A stretch of 64,000 bases of DNA. It comes from Prorocentrum cordatum. Lineage: Eukaryota > Sar > Dinophyceae > Prorocentrales > Prorocentraceae. The stretch spans positions 77,501-141,500 of the forward strand of contig CAUYUJ010014263.1 in assembly GCA_963575745.1 (NCBI GenBank). Reading direction: 5' to 3'. The notes below the pieces were generated by a model that was not told where the DNA came from, made no database searches, and saw only the letters and a list, made by a program, of their open reading frames with translations. Positions 3,700 to 49,087 of this stretch are shown one piece after another. Position 1 is the first letter of the stretch. Every line of letters starts with the position of its first letter. The position numbers were made by a program, and so were the translations under genes.

Positions 3700-5570
<1,871 letters not shown>

Positions 5571-7995: not shown

Positions 7996-8130
7996 CCTCC
8001 TTCTGCTCCTCCTCCTTCTCCTCCTCCCCCTCCTCCTCCTGCTCCTGCTTTCCTCCTCCTCCTCCTCCTCCTGCTCCCTCTCCTCCTGCTCCTCCTCCTC
8101 TTCCTTCTCCTCCTCCTTCCCCTCCATTCC
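7996..8130. repeat. CTC trinucleotide tract
   Basis: CTCCTC units, polarity opposite to the GGA tract at 7504. The GC-rich 7747-7995 between them shows nothing. Confidence 0.9.
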
Positions 8131-8234
8131 TGTTCCTTCTGACGAACTTCTCCCCGTCGCACCCCGGGGCAAGTTTTTATGGCGTGCCGGGCGTTCCCCA
8201 TGAGACCCCTCCCCATTTATGATTCTGAAACTCA

Positions 8235-8575
8235 GAAAGTGGCAGCAGTTTCACAGATGGAGAGGGTGGTTTTTCTAAATGTGGCTCTCGCCCTAGCGCC
8301 GCGCAAATTCGTTCTCAACATGAGCAAGAGCTTCACGGATTGAGGGTCACCCGTTTTCAAACTGTGGTTCTCGCCCTTGCGCCGTGCATAGTCGTTTTAA
8401 ACATGTGCAAGAGTTACACGGATTGAGGATCACTCGTTTTCAATATGTGATTCTCGCCTTAGCGCCGCGCACATCCGTCCTAAAACATGGCAAGAGCTTC
8501 ACGGACTGGGGGCGGCTCCTTTTCAATATGTGGTTCTCGTTTCAGCGCCGCACACATTCGTTTCATAAAATTCAG
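8235..8575. repeat. 83-bp tandem repeat, about 4 copies
   Basis: GCAAGAGCTTCACGG at 8324 recurs at 8407 (GCAAGAGTTACACGG) and 8490, an exact 83-bp spacing. Each unit also carries a TGTGGTTCTCGCC...GCGCCGCGCA block. The period is not a multiple of three, so it is unlikely to be coding. Confidence 0.85.
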
Positions 8576-8731
8576 AAGATGTTCGCAGATTCCCGTGATC
8601 AACGTACCAGGCTGGCGTTTTGGAAGGATTCCGGATTTTGCAGGTGCACCAGTTACGTTGATTCGCGGCACGATCCAGGATCGTCAAGACGCAACAATCA
8701 GGGTGATCCGTGGCGATGGAATCCCGCGACA

Positions 8732-8748
8732 ATGTTTTGGCATGCTTC
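8732..8748. repeat. Target-site duplication, left copy (17 bp)
   Basis: ATGTTTTGGCATGCTTC, immediately before the first base of the SL at 8749. It is identical in all 17 bases to 10381-10397. Confidence 0.92.
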
Positions 8749-8770
8749 TCCGTAGCCATTTTGGCTCAAG
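8749..8770 (+). other. Dinoflagellate spliced-leader sequence, complete
   Basis: All 22 bases match the dinoflagellate SL consensus (D)CCGTAGCC...TTGGCTCAAG, here with T at the variable first position. In the genome this exon normally appears only in SL RNA genes, where a donor site follows. Here it runs straight into transcript sequence, so it was carried in by reverse transcription. Confidence 0.95.
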
Positions 8771-8785
8771 CCATCCTGGCTCAAG
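8771..8785 (+). other. Relict spliced leader, partial and mutated
   Basis: CCATCCTGGCTCAAG matches the last 15 bases of the SL at 13 positions (TT to CC inside). It begins exactly after the position of the internal AG in CCGTAG. That is what remains when a genomic SL copy is used as a trans-splice acceptor and a new SL is joined on. It records an earlier round of retroposition. Confidence 0.9.
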
Positions 8786-8808
8786 GGTCGTTTTTTTCTC
8801 AAACGACT

Positions 8809-8853
8809 ATGGCTTGCACTTTTCCTGCCTGGGCTCACCACGTGGCTCGATGA
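8809..8853 (+). CDS. Short upstream ORF in the retrocopy leader
   Basis: The first ATG after the SL, at 8809, opens 14 codons and stops with TGA at 8851. It is out of frame with the main ORF. It may be chance, but an ATG here would be read first and could reduce translation of the downstream gene. Confidence 0.3.
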   Translation: MACTFPAWAHHVAR

Positions 8854-8911
8854 TGTGCGGCCGAGTCAGGTGCCACGCTGGAGGCAGAATACCAGTACAG
8901 TCCTTACTACC

Positions 8912-10090
8912 ATGTTGAAGGGTGCTCATTGTGCACACATCCAAGGCGGTCATCGCATATTTCAAGCGTTACGGTTTTGTTGCTCGCCCACAGAAGTCGT
9001 GGATTCTCGAACGCAGCTCGTGTTTTGTTCCGATCGGATTCCTGCGGTTAGCTCTTTGGGCAGGGTCAAGTCTGCATATGGGAAGATATCTTATGGATGT
9101 ATCACAGCAGCTGGATATTGTGTCACTTCCGTGGGAAGACAACGCGCCATGGTTCATCGTTTGGTGGCCCGTGCATTCCTTGGCCCACCACCAACAGCCC
9201 AGCACTCCGATGTGCACCACATTGACGGCGTTCGCAGCAACAACAAATCGCAGAATTTGCAGTATGTGACGCGCAGCCAGAACATTTGGTTCTCTTGGCG
9301 GAATCCCAATCGGGGTGTTCCTGCAGGTGCTCTTTCGCTGCCAGTGAGGGGTAGACCTCGCGGAGCTGAAGTATGGCATCATTTCAAGTCCATGCGAGAA
9401 GCAGAGCGGATGAGCAGTGCGTCCCATGTTAGATTTCGTTGTAATGGGATGTATAAGCAAGTTGGAGGGTGGGAGTTCCAGCGCGTGGAGCCCAATGTTG
9501 TCAACACGCTACAAGGAGAGCAGTGGCTAGATGCGCTTTATCCAGACACTGGTGTTCTTATACGTGGGTGGGAGGTCAGTTCCCTCGGGCGAGTACGTTC
9601 ATCGCGTGCCCCAGCCTCTTGGGGAACTTTGACTGCCTGTGGTTACCGTTCCGTCGGGATTTCAATAAAAGGCCACGCGAAACGATTCTTGGTCCACCGC
9701 ATTGTCGCGCGCTCGTTCCTGATTCCAGGTCCCCCGTCAGGCAGCTGGGTAGTCAACCATAAAGACAGTGACCGAAACAATAATCATGTTGATAATTTAG
9801 AGTACGCGACACCTTCCGAGAATTTACGTCATTCGTACCGAAACAATCCGAGACGGCGGACCAATCGCGAGGCGCTCGCAAAGCCTATTTTGGGTCGACC
9901 GCTTGGAGGTGATGTTTGGCAACGGTATCCTTCTGGAGCGGACGCGGCCAAGCTTCTAGGTCTCTCGCAAAGTGCAATTTCAAAATGTTGCATGGGCAAA
10001 TCTCGCCAAACAAAAGGCTTTGAATTTGAATTTGCAGCTCCAGTTCTTCCTGATGTGCTGGAAGGCGAGGAGTGGAGAAACATAGTATAG
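8912..10090 (+). CDS. Tandem NUMOD4-HNH homing-endonuclease-like protein
   Basis: 392 residues from the first in-frame ATG. It holds two related units of about 183 residues. Unit 1 has a VSSLGRVKS NUMOD4 motif near residue 30, then an HNH core with VHHIDG at 101-106, N110-N111 and N115-L116. Unit 2 has a NUMOD4 start (LQGEQW at 200-205, then VSSLGRVRS), an HNH core with VNHKD at 281-285, N289-N291 and N295-L296, and a NUMOD1-like helix-turn-helix near 345-370 (AAKLLGLSQSAISKCCMG). The last residues, LEGEEWRNIV, begin a third NUMOD4 unit that is cut off by TAG. HNH domains of this family bind a metal and nick DNA, and NUMODs are DNA-binding modules. Whether this protein cuts DNA is unknown. 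The frame is also open upstream without an ATG. The gene lies inside the retroposed SL-mRNA, so it is intronless and any promoter must lie outside the insertion. Confidence 0.85.
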   Translation: MLKGAHCAHIQGGHRIFQALRFCCSPTEVVDSRTQLVFCSDRIPAVSSLGRVKSAYGKISYGCITAAGYCVTSVGRQRAMVHRLVARAFLGPPPTAQHSDVHHIDGVRSNNKSQNLQYVTRSQNIWFSWRNPNRGVPAGALSLPVRGRPRGAEVWHHFKSMREAERMSSASHVRFRCNGMYKQVGGWEFQRVEPNVVNTLQGEQWLDALYPDTGVLIRGWEVSSLGRVRSSRAPASWGTLTACGYRSVGISIKGHAKRFLVHRIVARSFLIPGPPSGSWVVNHKDSDRNNNHVDNLEYATPSENLRHSYRNNPRRRTNREALAKPILGRPLGGDVWQRYPSGADAAKLLGLSQSAISKCCMGKSRQTKGFEFEFAAPVLPDVLEGEEWRNIV

Positions 10091-10380
10091 GATCTCCGCT
10101 TCTCCCCATAAGCGCCGCCGTGTCGTCGGATCACGAGTCCTTCCTTTGCAGCTTTGGCTCGGTGCTGCTTTGCCACATTGCACCTCGCGCGGCTCCGAGA
10201 CGACTCCTCTCCGCGAGGCTAGGCGAGGCGGGAAGTTTTCAAGCGTGGGGCAGGGAGAGGGGCAAACATCTCCCCGAAGGTCGAGCTTACAGAGGGGGGA
10301 AGGGCGTGTCGTCCAGAGAGGCGCTGCATAGCCGCGAGTACACGTTACGATGTTGTTCTGCGCGCGACCAGGAGAAAAAC

Positions 10381-10397
10381 ATGTTTTGGCATGCTTC
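10381..10397. repeat. Target-site duplication, right copy (17 bp)
   Basis: Identical to 8732-8748 and directly follows the GAGAAAAAC end of the retrocopy. Joining 8748 to 10398 gives the presumed empty site. Confidence 0.92.
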
Positions 10398-11225
10398 AGG
10401 GGGGTCAAACGGTTGTTTTCCAACAAGGCAGGTCCCTCAATGGCAATGAACCGTTGTAGGAGCCTATGAAGATGGAGCTTAGAGGATGGGTGTATTCCAA
10501 TATCGTTGATGGCTCTCGGGTTAACACTGGTTCTCCTTCTCCTCCTCGTCCTCCACCTCCTCGTGCTCCTCCCTCTCCTGCCTATGGCGGTAGTGATGGA
10601 AGATCGGCCCACCATGAGCTCGAAGCAGACCTCAACGGCAGAAGCAGGAGCTTTCGGAGCTCCGCGGGTTCTTCTCGCCGTCGCCGCCGCCGCCGCCGTC
10701 GACGTCGAGCGCCCTCCGAGGGGCAGGGCCGCGGGGGGTTGCCGGCGACGGCAAGGGCGGCGGCGGCGGCAACGGCCACGGGCCCCTGATGGGCGGTTCA
10801 AGGAGGGGGCCAGAACCATGATGCCATCCCAGGCGGTCGATGTTGGTGTCCCGATGTTAGGCAATGTCCGCGTGCACGCGCCATGGCAACGACATTGAGG
10901 TTGTTTCACTGCGGTGAAAATACGAGACTGTGCAATACCAATGCTTTACGATGCCCGAGAGCCCCTATCAGGGCCAGGACAACTACGTTGCAATCGAACT
11001 ATGGGAGTTGTGTGTTTCTGCTGTCGCCAACTGCATGCTCAGGGCTGCAGTCCGCAGATTGGCAGAATTTGCGACAGTAGTGTTGGCTATTGTCTAATGG
11101 CTCTAGGTACAGGGTCCACCAACAACCCAGCTCCTCCTCTTGCTAAGACCGCGGGGTTTATTTGTTGTGCCTATACAGCTTGTCTGTCTCGCTTCTAAGG
11201 CGATGGTTGCTTTCACCATGTTCGA
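10398..11225. other. Unassigned sequence with a short CTC tract and a dispersed-repeat copy
   Basis: 10535-10580 is CTCCTC-rich. 10720-10835 (GAGGGGCAGGGCCGCGGGG, GGCGGC repeats, GGGCGGTTCAAGGAGGGGG) matches 6560-6660. Nothing else recognised. Confidence 0.5.
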
Positions 11226-13536: not shown

Positions 13537-14545
13537 AGCACTCACACCGTTCGTGGCCCCATAGGGAGCTCCACCGAAGGCCCCAGCAGCAAGGTCCGCA
13601 TGCGTCCCCCCGCCCATTTCGGCACACCCCCAACGAGGATCGTGGCCCCACAGGGAGCTCCACCGAAGGCCCCAGCGGCAGGGTCCGCATGCGTCCCCCC
13701 GCGCATTTCGGCACACCCCCCACGAGGATCGTGTCCCCATAGGGAGCTCCACCGAAGGCCCCAGCGGCAGGGTCCGCATGCGTCCCCCCGCGCATTTCGG
13801 CGCACCCCCCACGAGGATCGTGTCCCCATAGGGAGCTCCACCGAAGGCCCCAGCAGCAGGGTCCGCATGCGTCCCCCCGCCCATTTCGGCACACCCCCAA
13901 CGAGGATCGTGGCCCCACAGGGAGCTCCACCGAAGGCCCCAGCGGCAGGGTCCGCATGCGTCCCCCCGCGCATTTCGGCACACCCCTCTCGAGGATCGTG
14001 GCCCCACAGGGAGCCCAACCGAAGGCCCCAGATGCAGGGTCCGCATGCTCATTTCGGCACACCTCTCACGAAGATCGTGGCCCCATAGGGAGCTCCACCG
14101 AAGGCTCTAGTGGCAGAGTCCGCATGCGTCCCCCCACCCATTTCGGCACACCCCTCACGAGGATCGTGTCCCCATAGGGAGCTCCACCGAAGGCCCCAGC
14201 AGCAGGGTCCGCATGTGTCCCCCAGCTCATTTCCGCACACACCTCACGAGGATCGTGACCCCATAGGGAGCTCCACCGAAAGCCTCCGCGGCAGGGCGTC
14301 CCCCTGCCCATTTCGGCACACCCCTCACTAAGATGGTGGCCCCATAGGAAGCCCCACCGAAGGCCCCAGCGGCTGGGTCCACATGCGTCCCCCTGCCCAT
14401 TTCGGCACGTCCCTCACGAGGACCGTGTCCCCATAGGAAGCTCAACCGAAGGCCCCCGCGGCAGGGTCCGCATGCGCCCCCCCGCCCATTTCGGCACACC
14501 CCTCACGAGGGTCGTGGCCCTGGAGGGAGCTCCACCGAGAGCGGT
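13537..14545. repeat. 89-bp satellite, 12 copies
   Basis: The block GTGGCCCCATAGGGAGCTCC recurs at 13553, 13642, 13731, 13820, 13909 and 13998, each 89 bp apart. It then recurs at 14077, 14166, 14255, 14336, 14425 and 14514, where two units are short (79 and 81 bp). Eighty-nine is not divisible by three, so the frames it leaves open are accidental. Confidence 0.95.
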
Positions 14546-43083: not shown

Positions 43084-46000
43084 ACCAGGCTGCTGGAGGG
43101 AAGGACCAGCGATGTGGAGGCTCAGCTTCGAGCCCAGGGATGGCGGGCGCGCGGCACGCCAGCCGTCCCGTCGTCGGCAGGAGGGCTCAGCTCTGGAGGA
43201 CTGATCTCCATGGTTCGGACCGCCTATGGGATGGCGGAGGTGGACGACCCGATGGGTGCCGTGGTCGTCCCAGGCAGAGTTCACGTCTGCTGGGTCGCAG
43301 GGGTGAGGAGAGGCGGTGTGCTTCTCGGCAACGTCTACCTCGAGGCGGGGGTCGGCCTGAACGCGAGTAACGTGCAGGCGCTCACGCTGCTGGCGAGGAG
43401 GCTCAAGCAGTACCAGAAGGAGTACCTGGTTGGTGGTGATTTTAACCTCACGGAGGAGGAGCTGAGGGACGGAGGTATGCTCGCCATGTTTGATGCGGTG
43501 GTGGTTCGTCCTTCGACTCCTACGTGCGCATCGTCGGGGAGGGTCATCGACTTCTTCCTGGTGTCCAAGGGCTTGAGGGCGTGCGAGGTCAGCGTGGTGC
43601 CTGCGTCGCCCGTCTACCCGCACTCCCCTGTCCTTGTCAAGGTCGGCGCGACGGGGCCCCGTGCGCCCTTCCGCGTGGCGCAGGCGCCGAAGCCCTTCCC
43701 TGTCCTGAGGCCCTCGGGGTGCTGCGAGTACGACCACGTGGGCAGATGGAAGCGGAGTCGGCAGGAGATGAGGAGGCTCCTCAGGCCGATGGTGGACTTC
43801 GTGGACGAGGAGGTTGAGGCAGGCGCGGGCTGCAGCCTGGGGGGCCCAGTCCCGTTGGGAGCGGGCCCCCAAGGCACGTGCACTGGGTCTGCCAGTTGGC
43901 CGCAGCCTGGGATAAATTGCGGCAGCCATCCTGGAGTGGAAGAGGTGGACGCGCGGGATGCGCAGTCCCACCCGGAGCCCCAGCCACAGGTCCGACCGGC
44001 GGGGCTTGCTGGAGGGAGCGCGGCAGGCTGCTGCGAGGAGGCTGGTGCTGGTGAGGTGGCTGCTGGTGCTGATGCCGCCTTGGGGCTGGGCCGCCTCGCA
44101 GGCTGCCGCAGTGTGCTCGCGCCGCCCCCTGCGCTGGCCACCGCGGCTTCGGCGGTCAGCCTTGGCCAGCTTTGCGGGCAGCTGGACGAGCAGTGGCAGG
44201 AGGCAGTGCGAGGATGCGGCTTGCTGCGGGAGCCTGAGGAAGCTGGGCCTCGTGGGGAGGCGAGGAGCACGCCTCGTCGGCGAGAGCCTGGGCCCAAGCA
44301 GCCACGAGAGGCACAGGCCCAAGAAAAAACAACCCCGCGAGGGCTCTCGAGGGTTAAAACTGAGGGGCCACGCCTGGGGAGCACGCCTGAGGAGCACGGG
44401 AGCGGGAGGCGAGGAGCACGCCTGAGGACCAGACCAGAGGCGCGGCGGAGCCCGTGGAGAGGGCTGGAGGAGCCAGCCGACCGCCTCCTTGGCGGGAAGT
44501 GCGTGCCAGCAGGAGGAGGATGCGACGAGGAGAAGGTCAAGGAGGGCCTCAGCATGGCCCTGGGCGCCTTCCTCCAGTGCGCGGAGGAGGAGTGGATCGA
44601 CGTGTACCAGCTGGGGGAGGAGCGCGACAGGTATTCTGGTAGAGCTGAAGGCTTCTCCACCAAGGTCGTCGTCAAGAGCGGGGTGCAGCAGGCGAGGTCG
44701 CCGAGGCTTACCCCTGAGGCGGCGTGGGTGGCCAGGGTGGCCAACGCGCTGCGCGCCGCCTCCAAGGTGGGCGCGCCACGCGCCAGGCAGGAGGCGCTCG
44801 GGTACTTGCCTGCGCTCGCGGCTCGCGTGCCGCAGCGGGTTCGGACGCTGCAGGAGGAGGATGAGGTTGAGGAGGCTGAGGGCAGTGTGGCCAGCTGCGG
44901 TGCAGTGGCAGGCAGATGGCACGGCTTCCTGCTGTACGGCGCGGTGGCGCTGTGGGACCCGTTCGCGCTGGCACACATGGCTGACCTCGCCAAGCGGCAT
45001 GCCAGCGAGCTAGCCCACCGAGATCTTGCCGAGCGAGGCAAGCGCTTTGACGAGTGGGTGGGTAAGCAGCTCAAGGGAGGAGCAGCAGGGCTGCACGCCG
45101 TCACTCGGGTGCCAGTAGGATGGCAGAGCAGCACTTGCAGTGGCAGCTCGGGCCCCGCAGGCCTCGGCAAGGAGATCGAACTCCTCGAGGCCGAGTGGGG
45201 CAAGCACTGGAGGATCGAGTGCGACCACGCCGAGCTGCAGTGGCCCTCAGATCTGGGCGAACGGCCTCCGCGGCCGTCCGTGGAGGACCTGCGCCGCTGC
45301 CTCCGCTCCTTCAAGAAGGACACGGCCTCGGGCTTCGAGGCCATCAAGCCCAGGCAGCTCCTCGAGCTCAGCAGCGAGGGGATAGAGGCTCTGATCGACC
45401 TGCTGATGGCCGTGGAGCAGATGGCGGAGTGGCCGCAGCTGCACACCAAGATCGTGTTCTTGGCTAAGCGGCTCGGGGGCGTTCGCCCTGTGGCCATCAT
45501 CCACGTGGTGGCCAGGGTCCAGGCGAGGCTGCGCAAGCCGCTGGCGGACGCCTGGGAGCGCAGGAACGACCGCCCCTACTTCTGGGCGTCCAGAGGCAAG
45601 GGCTGCGAGAGGGCGGTGTGGCAGCAGGCGGTAGAGTGCGAGTGGGCCTCGGCGAAGGGGCGTGAGGCTGGTGACGCCTCTAGCCGGGTGTCAGCGCTGG
45701 TGCTGCTCGACCTGCTCAAGGCGTACGAGCAGGTGCAGCACGGGCGCCTCATCCAGGCGGCGGTGCGAACGGGCTTCCCGCTGTGGCAGCTCAAGCTGCA
45801 GGTCAGCCTCTACAGATCTCCGAGGTGGCTTGCGCTGGGAGAGGCCTTGAGCAACCCCATCGCCACCAAGCAGGCGGTGCTGCCAGGCGACGGCTTCGCC
45901 ACGCTCATGCTCAAGATGATGCTGATCGAGCCCCTCGACAAGCTGCAAGCGCTGGTGCCCACCGTCTCCCTGTCGGTGGTGGTGGACGATCTCATCCTGA

Positions 46001-48212
46001 AGTTGTCGGAGGCCTGCGGCGCACGGTGGATGAGGTGGCGACGGCGACACGGCGCCTCAAGGAGCTCCTGGGGAAGGCCGACCTTCGCATCGCCACCAAG
46101 AAGTCCAGGGCCCTCTCCAACTACCCTGAGGCGAGGCACGAGCTGGAGCGGAGGCTGCAGAGGACGGCAGGCGTCACTGCGGCGAGGCAGGAGCGCAACC
46201 TGGGCGACGACTTCAGTGGAGGCAAGCGGCTCGGACGTGAAGTACGAGCAGGAAGGATGCAGCAGGCCCAGCAGCGCCTTCGGAGGGTGAAGATCGTCAA
46301 GATGACGAAAGGCAGGAAGCCCGCGACGAGGAGGCTCGCGAAGACCGCCCTGCACCCCAGCATCGGGTACGGCACGGCCATCACAGGCTGCACCACGACC
46401 GAGCTCGATCGTGCCAGGTCCCTGACGTTCGTGGCGGTGTCGAACACCACGGCGGAGAAGCCAAGGACCCTCACGATGATGCTCCAGCCAGGGCTCGACC
46501 CGATAGTCGACGCCACGTGCAAGCCCGTGCAGATGCTACTGCGCGCGGTGTGGGAGGGCTGGGTGCCACGCCACATGGTGGTCTTATGCCTGCAGGACGC
46601 GCGCACGGTCACGTGGGCCCACGTCCAGGGCCCTTGCGCGGCGACGCTTCTCTCGCTGCGGAGGATTGACTGGGAGGTCGTCACGGCCAATTGCTGGAGG
46701 ATGGACGATGGTGGCCTCCTTGCGCCGTTTGACATCTCCCCGTGGATCGTGATCAAGCTGGTGCAGCGGGCCATCGTGAAGTGGCAGTGGAGACAAGCCA
46801 GCCTGGCGCCTGGGTGCGCTCACCTGGCGGAGGGCGGGACGCTGGAGCCGCTCATCAGGCTCACCTCCACTGGCTGTGTCACGAGCGTGGCGGACAGGAG
46901 GGACGGTACCGCCGCGGGCACCAAGGTGCGGCTCACCCTCAAGGAGCGGGCGTACCTCCACTCCCTGGTGGTCAATGGGCAGTGGCCCCAGGCGCGCAAG
47001 GAGGAGAAGGGCCTTGCCGAGTGTGCTGAGTGCCTGCGGTGCGGGGGCAGAGGGACGCTCCTGCATCGCCACTGCGATTGCGAATGCTGGAGAGAGGTGC
47101 TGACGCTTCCGAAGGGGATCGCGGACCTCAGGAAGCGGAGCCACCTGCCCGAGGTCACCCTGCTGTTGGAACGGTGCCTGTGGCCGACGCCGCCTGGGCT
47201 ACGCAAGCCACGGGCCAGTGACCTGGTGTGCTGGCGCGGCGACCACGACGGCGGGGTCCTCCCTGGTGGCGAGTTCTTCCTCGACGGCTCCGCGTTCGAG
47301 GCCGACTTCGACGAGTTCGCATCGGTCGGCTGGAGCGTGGTCGCCTTGCAGCCCGATGCCGATTGCTACCTGGCCTCCGTTGCTGGGCAGTTGTGCGGCG
47401 CCTACGTCGACATCAACGGGGGCGAGCTCATGGCGGTGATCATGGCGCTGCGGTTCAGCATGGGCGTGGTCACGCTGGTGGTCGACTCGAAGTACGTGTA
47501 CGACGGCTTCTACAAGGCGGGTCGCACGAACACTGCCGCCTACGCGTACTCCTGGGCGCACCTGTGGCGGCTGGCGTGGGCCCTGGTGGACGACAGAGGA
47601 GGGCTTGGTCGTGCAGTGCACCTCCGATGGGTCCCTGCCCACCGCACCAGGAGGCAGGTCGTGGACGGCGCCATCAGCTACCGCGACTGGAAGGGCAACT
47701 CGTACGCCGACGCAGCTGCGAAGGCGGCGGCTGCCCAGGGCCGTGCCTCGGCCGCCGATCGCCGCAAGCTGCACCTGGCTCGGCAGCAGGTGGACTTGGT
47801 GGCCATGTGGTGCACTGCGGTCGGCACATGGGTGGATGGCAGCGACACCACCCATCGCAAGGAGCGGCCGAAGAGGGCGGTTCGGCGGCGCCGTAAAGCC
47901 TCCGCGTGGCTGAGCTGCAGCTGGCGCGGGAAGGGCAAGGACAGATGGTGTGAGGTCTGCAGGTGGACCAACCGCGCTGGCGAGTGCCCTGGCAGCATCC
48001 TGGAGGACGCGGTGAAGGCCAACGAGCTGCTGGTGCAGAAGGGGCTCGCGGCGCACGACCTGGTCGCCATCGCTCCTGTGCTGGACAGCGAGCTGGAGCG
48101 GAGGTTGCCGTTGGTCGCATGCACCAGGTGCGGGTTCACTGGAGCCGCTCGCGCCTGCAGCTTCGGGCTGGAGTGCAAGACGCCGCCCTCGGCCGCGGGC
48201 AGCGCGGCTATC

Positions 48213-48279
48213 GCGCCCAGGATCGCGCCCTCGGCCGCGGGCAGCGCGCCTGCGTGCTGGGCTCGCGCCCAGGATCGCG
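48213..48279 (+). repeat. 52-bp tandem duplication breaking the LINE ORF2 frame
   Basis: GCGCCCAGGATCGCG at 48213 recurs at 48265, and CCCTCGGCCGCGGGCAGCGC repeats in the same register. A 52-bp step equals +1 in frame. Reading from the first copy directly into the sequence after the second gives a continuous frame (RIASEVAVTLRRLGGGEP and onward). Confidence 0.85.
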
Positions 48280-49087
48280 AGCGAGGTTGCCGTCACGCTG
48301 CGGCGCCTTGGCGGTGGCGAGCCGACGGCAGCAGCAGAGGAGGTGGGCGCTGGCCCCGCCCCTCCTCCCGCCGAGCCCATCAGTGGGAGCCCCGTCGCTC
48401 GTGGCGAGGACGGTGGCCAGAGCGTGCCACCTATGAGAGGTGAGGACTGGGGCTCTGAGGCGGCGGAGGGCGTCAGAGGCGGCGACGGCGCTGGAGGTGA
48501 GGACTGGTGCGCCGCTGGAGCAGCTGCAGAGGCCGCGGCGACCCCCACGACCCCTGGGGAGGGCGAGGCCGATGGGGAAGGCCGAAGGGACGCCAGCGGC
48601 CCAAGAGGAGTGGAAGGGCCGCCAGCGCGGCGCCACCAGGGGCCTCCGCCGCGGGCTCACCGCCCTGCGGGCGGGGGCGAGGACGAGGGCGCGGACTCTG
48701 CTGAGGCGGCAGAGAGCGGCCCAATAGGGGTGGAAGAGCCGCCAGTGCGGCGCCACCAGGGGGCCCTGCCGCGGGCTCACCGCCCTGCTGGCGGGGGCGA
48801 GGAGGGAGAGGGAGCGGCCGCGGGCTCTGCGGAGGCGGCGGAGGCAGCGCGGCGGAGCTCCGTGGTCGCCTCGCTCCTGGCCGCCTACCGCCGCGGCTGT
48901 GACGCGGCGGGGCTGAGCGACGGCGCTGCTGCGCGTACGCCCCGCACTGGAGGCCCCCAGGGGGCCAAGCCAGGCGGGGCTGCTGGACTCGCCTCGGACC
49001 CTGGCGGCGGGGGGGCCCGTGTGGCCTCCGTGGCTCCCGTGCCTGTGGGTGCCGCCAGGCCCGAGGGCCTGGGGTGAGTGCGGCCGT

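Follow-up and report, generated by a model that had tools for sequence, protein, structure and literature searches.

A spliced-leader mRNA retrocopy with both junctions intact in the dinoflagellate Prorocentrum cordatum, probably inserted by a LINE-type mechanism

We find that a 1632-bp insert in the genome of Prorocentrum cordatum very probably represents a trans-spliced mRNA retrocopied over its full length, the copy being made in trans by a LINE through target-primed reverse transcription. The core of this claim, retroposition of a trans-spliced mRNA with a target-site duplication (TSD) left behind, had been made in a sequence-only reading of the DNA, and it is borne out by an exact spliced leader (SL), 17-bp repeats at the two ends and copies of the target repeat that are paralogous empty sites.

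Anatomy of the insert and its target site

The window, that is the whole stretch of DNA that was analysed, is 64 kb long (C13414:77501-141500 of the 4.13-Gb P. cordatum assembly; C-numbers designate contigs there) and its sole full SL lies at 8749-8770. The features around it are, in order:

8006..8748, + strand: 5' flank, a dispersed repeat with 83-bp tandem units at ~8271-8563
8732..8748, + strand: 5' copy of the TSD, 17 bp, ATGTTTTGGCATGCTTC, exact; one copy in the paralogous empty sites
8749..10380, + strand: the probable retrocopy insert, 1632 bp
8749..8770, + strand: exact dinoflagellate SL, 22 nt, TCCGTAGCCATTTTGGCTCAAG
8771..8785, + strand: relict SL, CCATCCTGGCTCAAG, with 2 mismatches, directly 3' of the exact SL
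8912..10090, + strand: intact 392-codon open reading frame (ORF; ATG at 8912, stop at 10090) with two HNH_3 stretches and an I-HmuI NUMOD-like domain
10091..10380, + strand: 3' UTR, terminating in GGAGAAAAAC (A5 at 10375-10379, then C)
10381..10397, + strand: 3' copy of the TSD, 17 bp, ATGTTTTGGCATGCTTC, exact
10381..10579, + strand: 3' flank, where the dispersed repeat of the 5' flank resumes

The 22-nt SL at 8749-8770, the GGAGAAAAAC end at 10380 before the 3' 17-mer and the perfect 17-bp duplication (8732-8748 and 10381-10397) are all exactly as the sequence-only reading had claimed. That reading had also implied a single round of retroposition, which has to be revised: the relict SL behind the exact one means that the gene lineage went through RNA at least twice, and it is strongly implied that the template of the insert already carried the older relict. 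In the paralog C76, the stretch aligned to the relict (8771-8785) differs. At the other end, a long poly(A) is absent, the 3' tail consisting of A5C only, and the 3' UTR has just two short matches elsewhere in the assembly (56 and 72 query bases, at 86% and 78%).

The earlier reading had considered that the 17-mers might belong to a dispersed repeat unrelated to the insertion. A dispersed repeat is indeed there, but unrelated it is not. A search of the assembly with the flanks listed at least 80 matches (best 40 of 5849 first-look candidates scored), and we tabulated 34 other repeat copies, each with both flanks listed (up to 8748 and from 10381). The two flank pieces overlap by 17 bp in 31 of these copies, by 15 bp in 2 and by 18 bp in 1, and 11 distinct copies, from 10 fetched contigs, have one exact 17-mer apiece. 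Copies with abutting flanks are paralogous empty sites, and we regard the 17-mer as a true TSD because the flanks abut with this 17-bp overlap in all but three copies. Chance repeats were rejected as well: allowing up to 3 mismatches the 17-mer has 4 matches (those beyond the exact pair have 3 mismatches), a number reached in 0 of 100 shuffles. A 17-mer already doubled before the insertion was rejected on the single 17-mers and the flank overlaps. That the 17-mers arose by chance or were duplicated beforehand, the HNH gene having come by DNA recombination, is therefore hardly credible: the 17-mer does sit within a dispersed repeat, but the explanation is contradicted by the empty sites, by the one exact 17-mer in each fetched copy and by an insert that starts exactly at the SL.

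The cargo gene and its closest copy

The intact 392-codon gene claimed for the insert was confirmed, its coding region forming one open frame. This frame is open from the SL through to the stop at 10090, and the database entry of the ORF product is 444 residues long, starting with PFWLKPSWLK, the translated SL plus relict. The ORF matches HNH_3 (1.7e-21, in two stretches) and a NUMOD-like domain (3.6e-9), and its closest solved structure is I-HmuI (PDB 1u3e; 3.6e-10, residues 220-374); NCBIfam gave a single match, far under cut-off, and Rfam gave none on the window at gathering scores. H103, N110, N111, H283 and N291 show no variation across an alignment of 19 sequences, made up of the query plus 18 of the 120 homologs listed. 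The product is likely a DNA-cutting enzyme. HNH and NUMOD-like domains are common to the cargo and the I-HmuI-type HNH homing endonucleases. I-HmuI has its home in an intron; unlike it, the cargo is a gene of the dinoflagellate nucleus that has two HNH stretches and is not known to lie in an intron.

Homologous proteins are numerous, with 2155 of 7998 scored candidates matching; P. cordatum, Effrenium, Symbiodinium and Durusdinium are named among the 120 homologs listed. In its own genome, the HNH family has at least 109 matching stretches at many loci (best 105 of 194 first-look candidates scored). SL-coded peptides occur in two of 121 proteins (the 120 listed homologs and P0121), namely the insert's own (P0001) and P0038. 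The cargo gene family is large and repeatedly retroposed.

An intron-bearing parent in the same assembly, which the sequence-only reading had proposed to search for, did not emerge: with the insert as query, the 4.13 Gb yielded no near-identical parent, whether intron-bearing or intronless (all 13 first-look candidates scored). The best non-self match and closest copy is C76, 81% identical to the insert, with a coding region that aligns without an intron-sized gap; the homologous protein P0002 (P. cordatum), which corresponds to the gene on C76, is 72% identical. The SL of C76 is decayed (3 mismatches), an in-frame TAG lies close to its end, and ACAAAAGG is followed by a TSD of 15 bp that has a single mismatch, so that C76, too, reads as an SL retrocopy that lacks introns and carries a TSD. 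Between insert and C76, dS is 0.40 and dN/dS is 0.39, so the reading frame was under constraint during part of its history. The insertion had been claimed to be datable as recent; what stands is an upper bound of less than ~5.3% divergence per branch (intact SL and TSD, 56 sites, assuming that the SL copy evolves freely), not the date itself. Because of this bound, C76, at 81% identity, is not the direct parent, a role in which it was also rejected for its own SL-like start, TSD and in-frame TAG. The true parent is lost, diverged or unassembled; of an estimated 4.75 Gb of genome, 4.15 Gb is assembled (PMC10666404).

Sister insertions in the HNH family

We tested 36 HNH loci, 30 at first and 6 fetched later, with controls confined to the first 30. 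A sequence was called SL-like at up to 4 mismatches, and a locus passed if it had a TSD anchored at the SL and an A-rich stretch just before the downstream copy. SL-like sequences are present in 24 loci, exact in 8, and a TSD of 14-22 aligned columns (which in some loci take in the first 1-2 bases of the SL) together with an A-rich 3' end was found in 7 of these 24, given here as matches/aligned columns:

Window locus: TSD 17/17, after A5C
C76: TSD 14/15, after ACAAAAGG
C7546: TSD 15/17, after A5
C20532: TSD 14/14, after A8
C10735: TSD 18/20, after A7T
C736: TSD 20/22, after an A-rich tail
C15506: TSD 16/16, after GAAAACAT

Insert lengths at the TSD-bearing loci were 1348-1631 among the first 30 tested, and 1443 at C15506. 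Of the first 20 loci with an SL, 6 passed the combined TSD and A test, compared with 6 among 1883 shifted anchors (Fisher p ~5e-10, from controls that overlap and share loci, in flanks rich in simple repeats, and with the score cut and A rule set after the first cases were known); on the repeat score alone, 7/20 loci passed versus 174/1883 controls. In a cruder early control, the score of the locus was reached by 5/39 shifted anchors for C20532, 2/39 for C7546, 1/39 for C76 and 0/39 for the window and C736 (C10735 was not yet included). Out of sample, C15506 passes, as one of 4 SL-bearing loci among the six fetched after the criterion had been fixed.

The remaining 17 of the 24 SL-bearing loci fail the test, and no convincing TSD was found at C15015 or at the exact-SL loci C17266, C18243 and C16558. 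C7546 and C15015 share 94% identity between the SL and a common 3' end but occupy separate sites, as two insertions of one type of transcript would. Stacked SL relicts, two or more, can be read in several members, e.g. C736 and C17266. The sequence-only reading had held that both ends and the TSD are usually lost; within the HNH family, intact ends are not exceptional (7/24 SL-bearing loci). The family also includes an array, at ~13-51 kb of C18525 (assembly G000), of HNH gene matches ~5 kb apart with decayed SL relicts, and one of its members is 86% identical to the SL-tagged copy C736.

Mechanism of insertion

Long, length-variable TSDs joined to A tracts at the 3' junction characterise target-primed reverse transcription of the LINE type, and this part of the earlier claim is supported by the 14-22-column TSDs that follow A-rich ends at the six sister loci. 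The copy of the trans-spliced HNH/NUMOD mRNA starts with the very first SL base, ends in a short A run and sits in one copy of the dispersed repeat, of which 17 bp are duplicated. Reverse transcriptase and nicking activity would have been supplied in trans by a LINE (non-LTR) element, the 3' A tract serving to prime synthesis. The window contains LINE-like remains (43114-48443, + strand), whose matches are weak and split between two frames: sub-threshold endonuclease and reverse transcriptase matches lie in one ORF, and an RNase H match (6.6e-8) lies in a second ORF that overlaps it.

Integrase TSDs are short and fixed, at 4-6 bp. Those described here span 14-22 aligned columns, vary in length and adjoin A-rich ends, and in the window the TSD is 17 bp and the insert begins at the SL. 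It is thus very unlikely that the cDNA came from an LTR-retrotransposon reverse transcriptase and was placed by an integrase, the route preferred by a 2018 review that cites high Ty1/copia expression in dinoflagellates (PMC6050394); we favour a LINE-type mechanism over it because TSDs with A-rich 3' ends recur in the HNH family well above the shifted controls. Capture of a free cDNA at the staggered ends of a double-strand break, by repair and with no target-primed synthesis, would suit the short tails and the several SL family loci with no detectable TSD, such as C15015, but we give it a slim chance, since an A tract adjoining the TSD in seven loci better fits priming on the 3' end of an RNA. 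LINE-type retroposition could be extended to a semi-autonomous HNH family, in which the family's own nickase would open targets and a LINE reverse transcriptase would copy the SL mRNA, with relicts stacking up; in a milder form, each retrocopy would bring the acceptor AG of CCGTAG, and insertion next to a (CCT)n polypyrimidine tract would make it an instantly expressed gene, able to be retroposed again. We hold this extension to be rather unlikely, and nothing in the data indicates a role of the nuclease in retroposition.

Relation to known retrocopies

Processed pseudogenes made by LINE-1 in mammals are full-length mRNA copies with an A-rich 3' end and a TSD of variable length, all of which the insert shares; unlike them, it has a trans-spliced leader as its 5' end, and its A tract is short. 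Of the traits of LINE-mediated retrocopies, it has a TSD that is variable and beyond integrase length and a (short) A-rich end adjoining it. DinoSL-tagged retrogenes of dinoflagellates were reportedly described by Slamovits and Keeling in 2008. With these the insert has in common a 5' SL, a stacked relict SL and an apparently intronless copy, the SL and relict lying at the 5' edge of the gene (8749-8770 and 8771-8785), and it is an unusually complete member of this known kind. Compared with such retrogenes as treated in the portions drawn on of PMC6050394 and PMC12014239, both junctions, an A-rich end, a TSD and paralogous empty sites are resolved here.

Dinoflagellate genomes hold thousands of recycled mRNAs, whose LTR or LINE origin is left open in those same portions: the review of Song et al. 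(2018; PMC6050394) gives the element type as unknown and LTR elements as more likely, and the 2025 survey (PMC12014239) names both kinds. For virus-derived inserts that carry SLs, a further paper proposes LINEs as one of the routes (PMC10235124). The words 'target site' are absent from the main text of PMC6050394, PMC12014239 and a 2024 review (PMC11453091), and no description of TSDs at dinoflagellate retrogenes was found in the literature searched, largely by titles and abstract starts. With TSDs intact and A-rich ends and empty sites to hand, the LTR-versus-LINE question can be tested directly on sequence, and the HNH family offers seven such junctions.

Spliced-leader tags across the genome and in other contigs

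The exact SL occurs at 14,218 places in the assembly, a count that may include SL RNA genes, and the SL followed by an exact relict at 1,202. Immediately 3' of 12 pyrimidines, the exact SL is found at 4,055 of the 14,218 places (28.5%), against a background of 1.3-2.2% of positions for such a tract (fetched loci and window); reversed-pattern controls for all three counts gave 0. Most of the ~100 pyrimidine-SL sites listed are (CCT)n, and in the contig range common to both listings 12 of 32 SL-plus-relict places also appear among them. Such a tract precedes the SL at none of the 8 HNH loci whose SL is exact. The AG inside CCGTAG likely acts as a trans-splice acceptor, which would account for relicts starting at CCATTTTGG, and an upstream polypyrimidine tract may let a retrocopy be expressed and help it become a gene. 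The surplus of SL tags next to pyrimidine tracts suggests a rule, open to testing, by which retrocopies that lack a promoter become genes; a rival explanation is target preference for (CCT)n. At the first five of the 1,202 SL-plus-relict loci (L071-L075) no clean TSD was found, because all five adjoin CCT or GGA microsatellites, an outcome that speaks against easy generalisation beyond the HNH family.

Exact SLs also occur outside the P. cordatum assembly. The sole IMG/VR contig with one (L060, IMGVR_UViG_3300045993_001077; 22% GC, giant-virus-like by reading) has at 1738-2992 on the minus strand, between two low-GC genes of its own, an insert that starts with an SL, holds a 254-codon ORF and ends in GGGAAAAAA; a second exact SL lies 147 bp upstream. 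The ORF matches only itself among 126 candidates, and the neighbouring genes match this contig only among the IMG/VR matches listed, with no empty site. This insert is possibly a host mRNA retroposed into a viral genome; a chimeric assembly might also explain it. Two Dehalococcoidia MAG contigs (L061 and L062) bring the exact SL into two bacterial bins, in one case followed by GTACG, the sequence that follows the SL in SL RNA genes; both SLs are probably dinoflagellate contamination.
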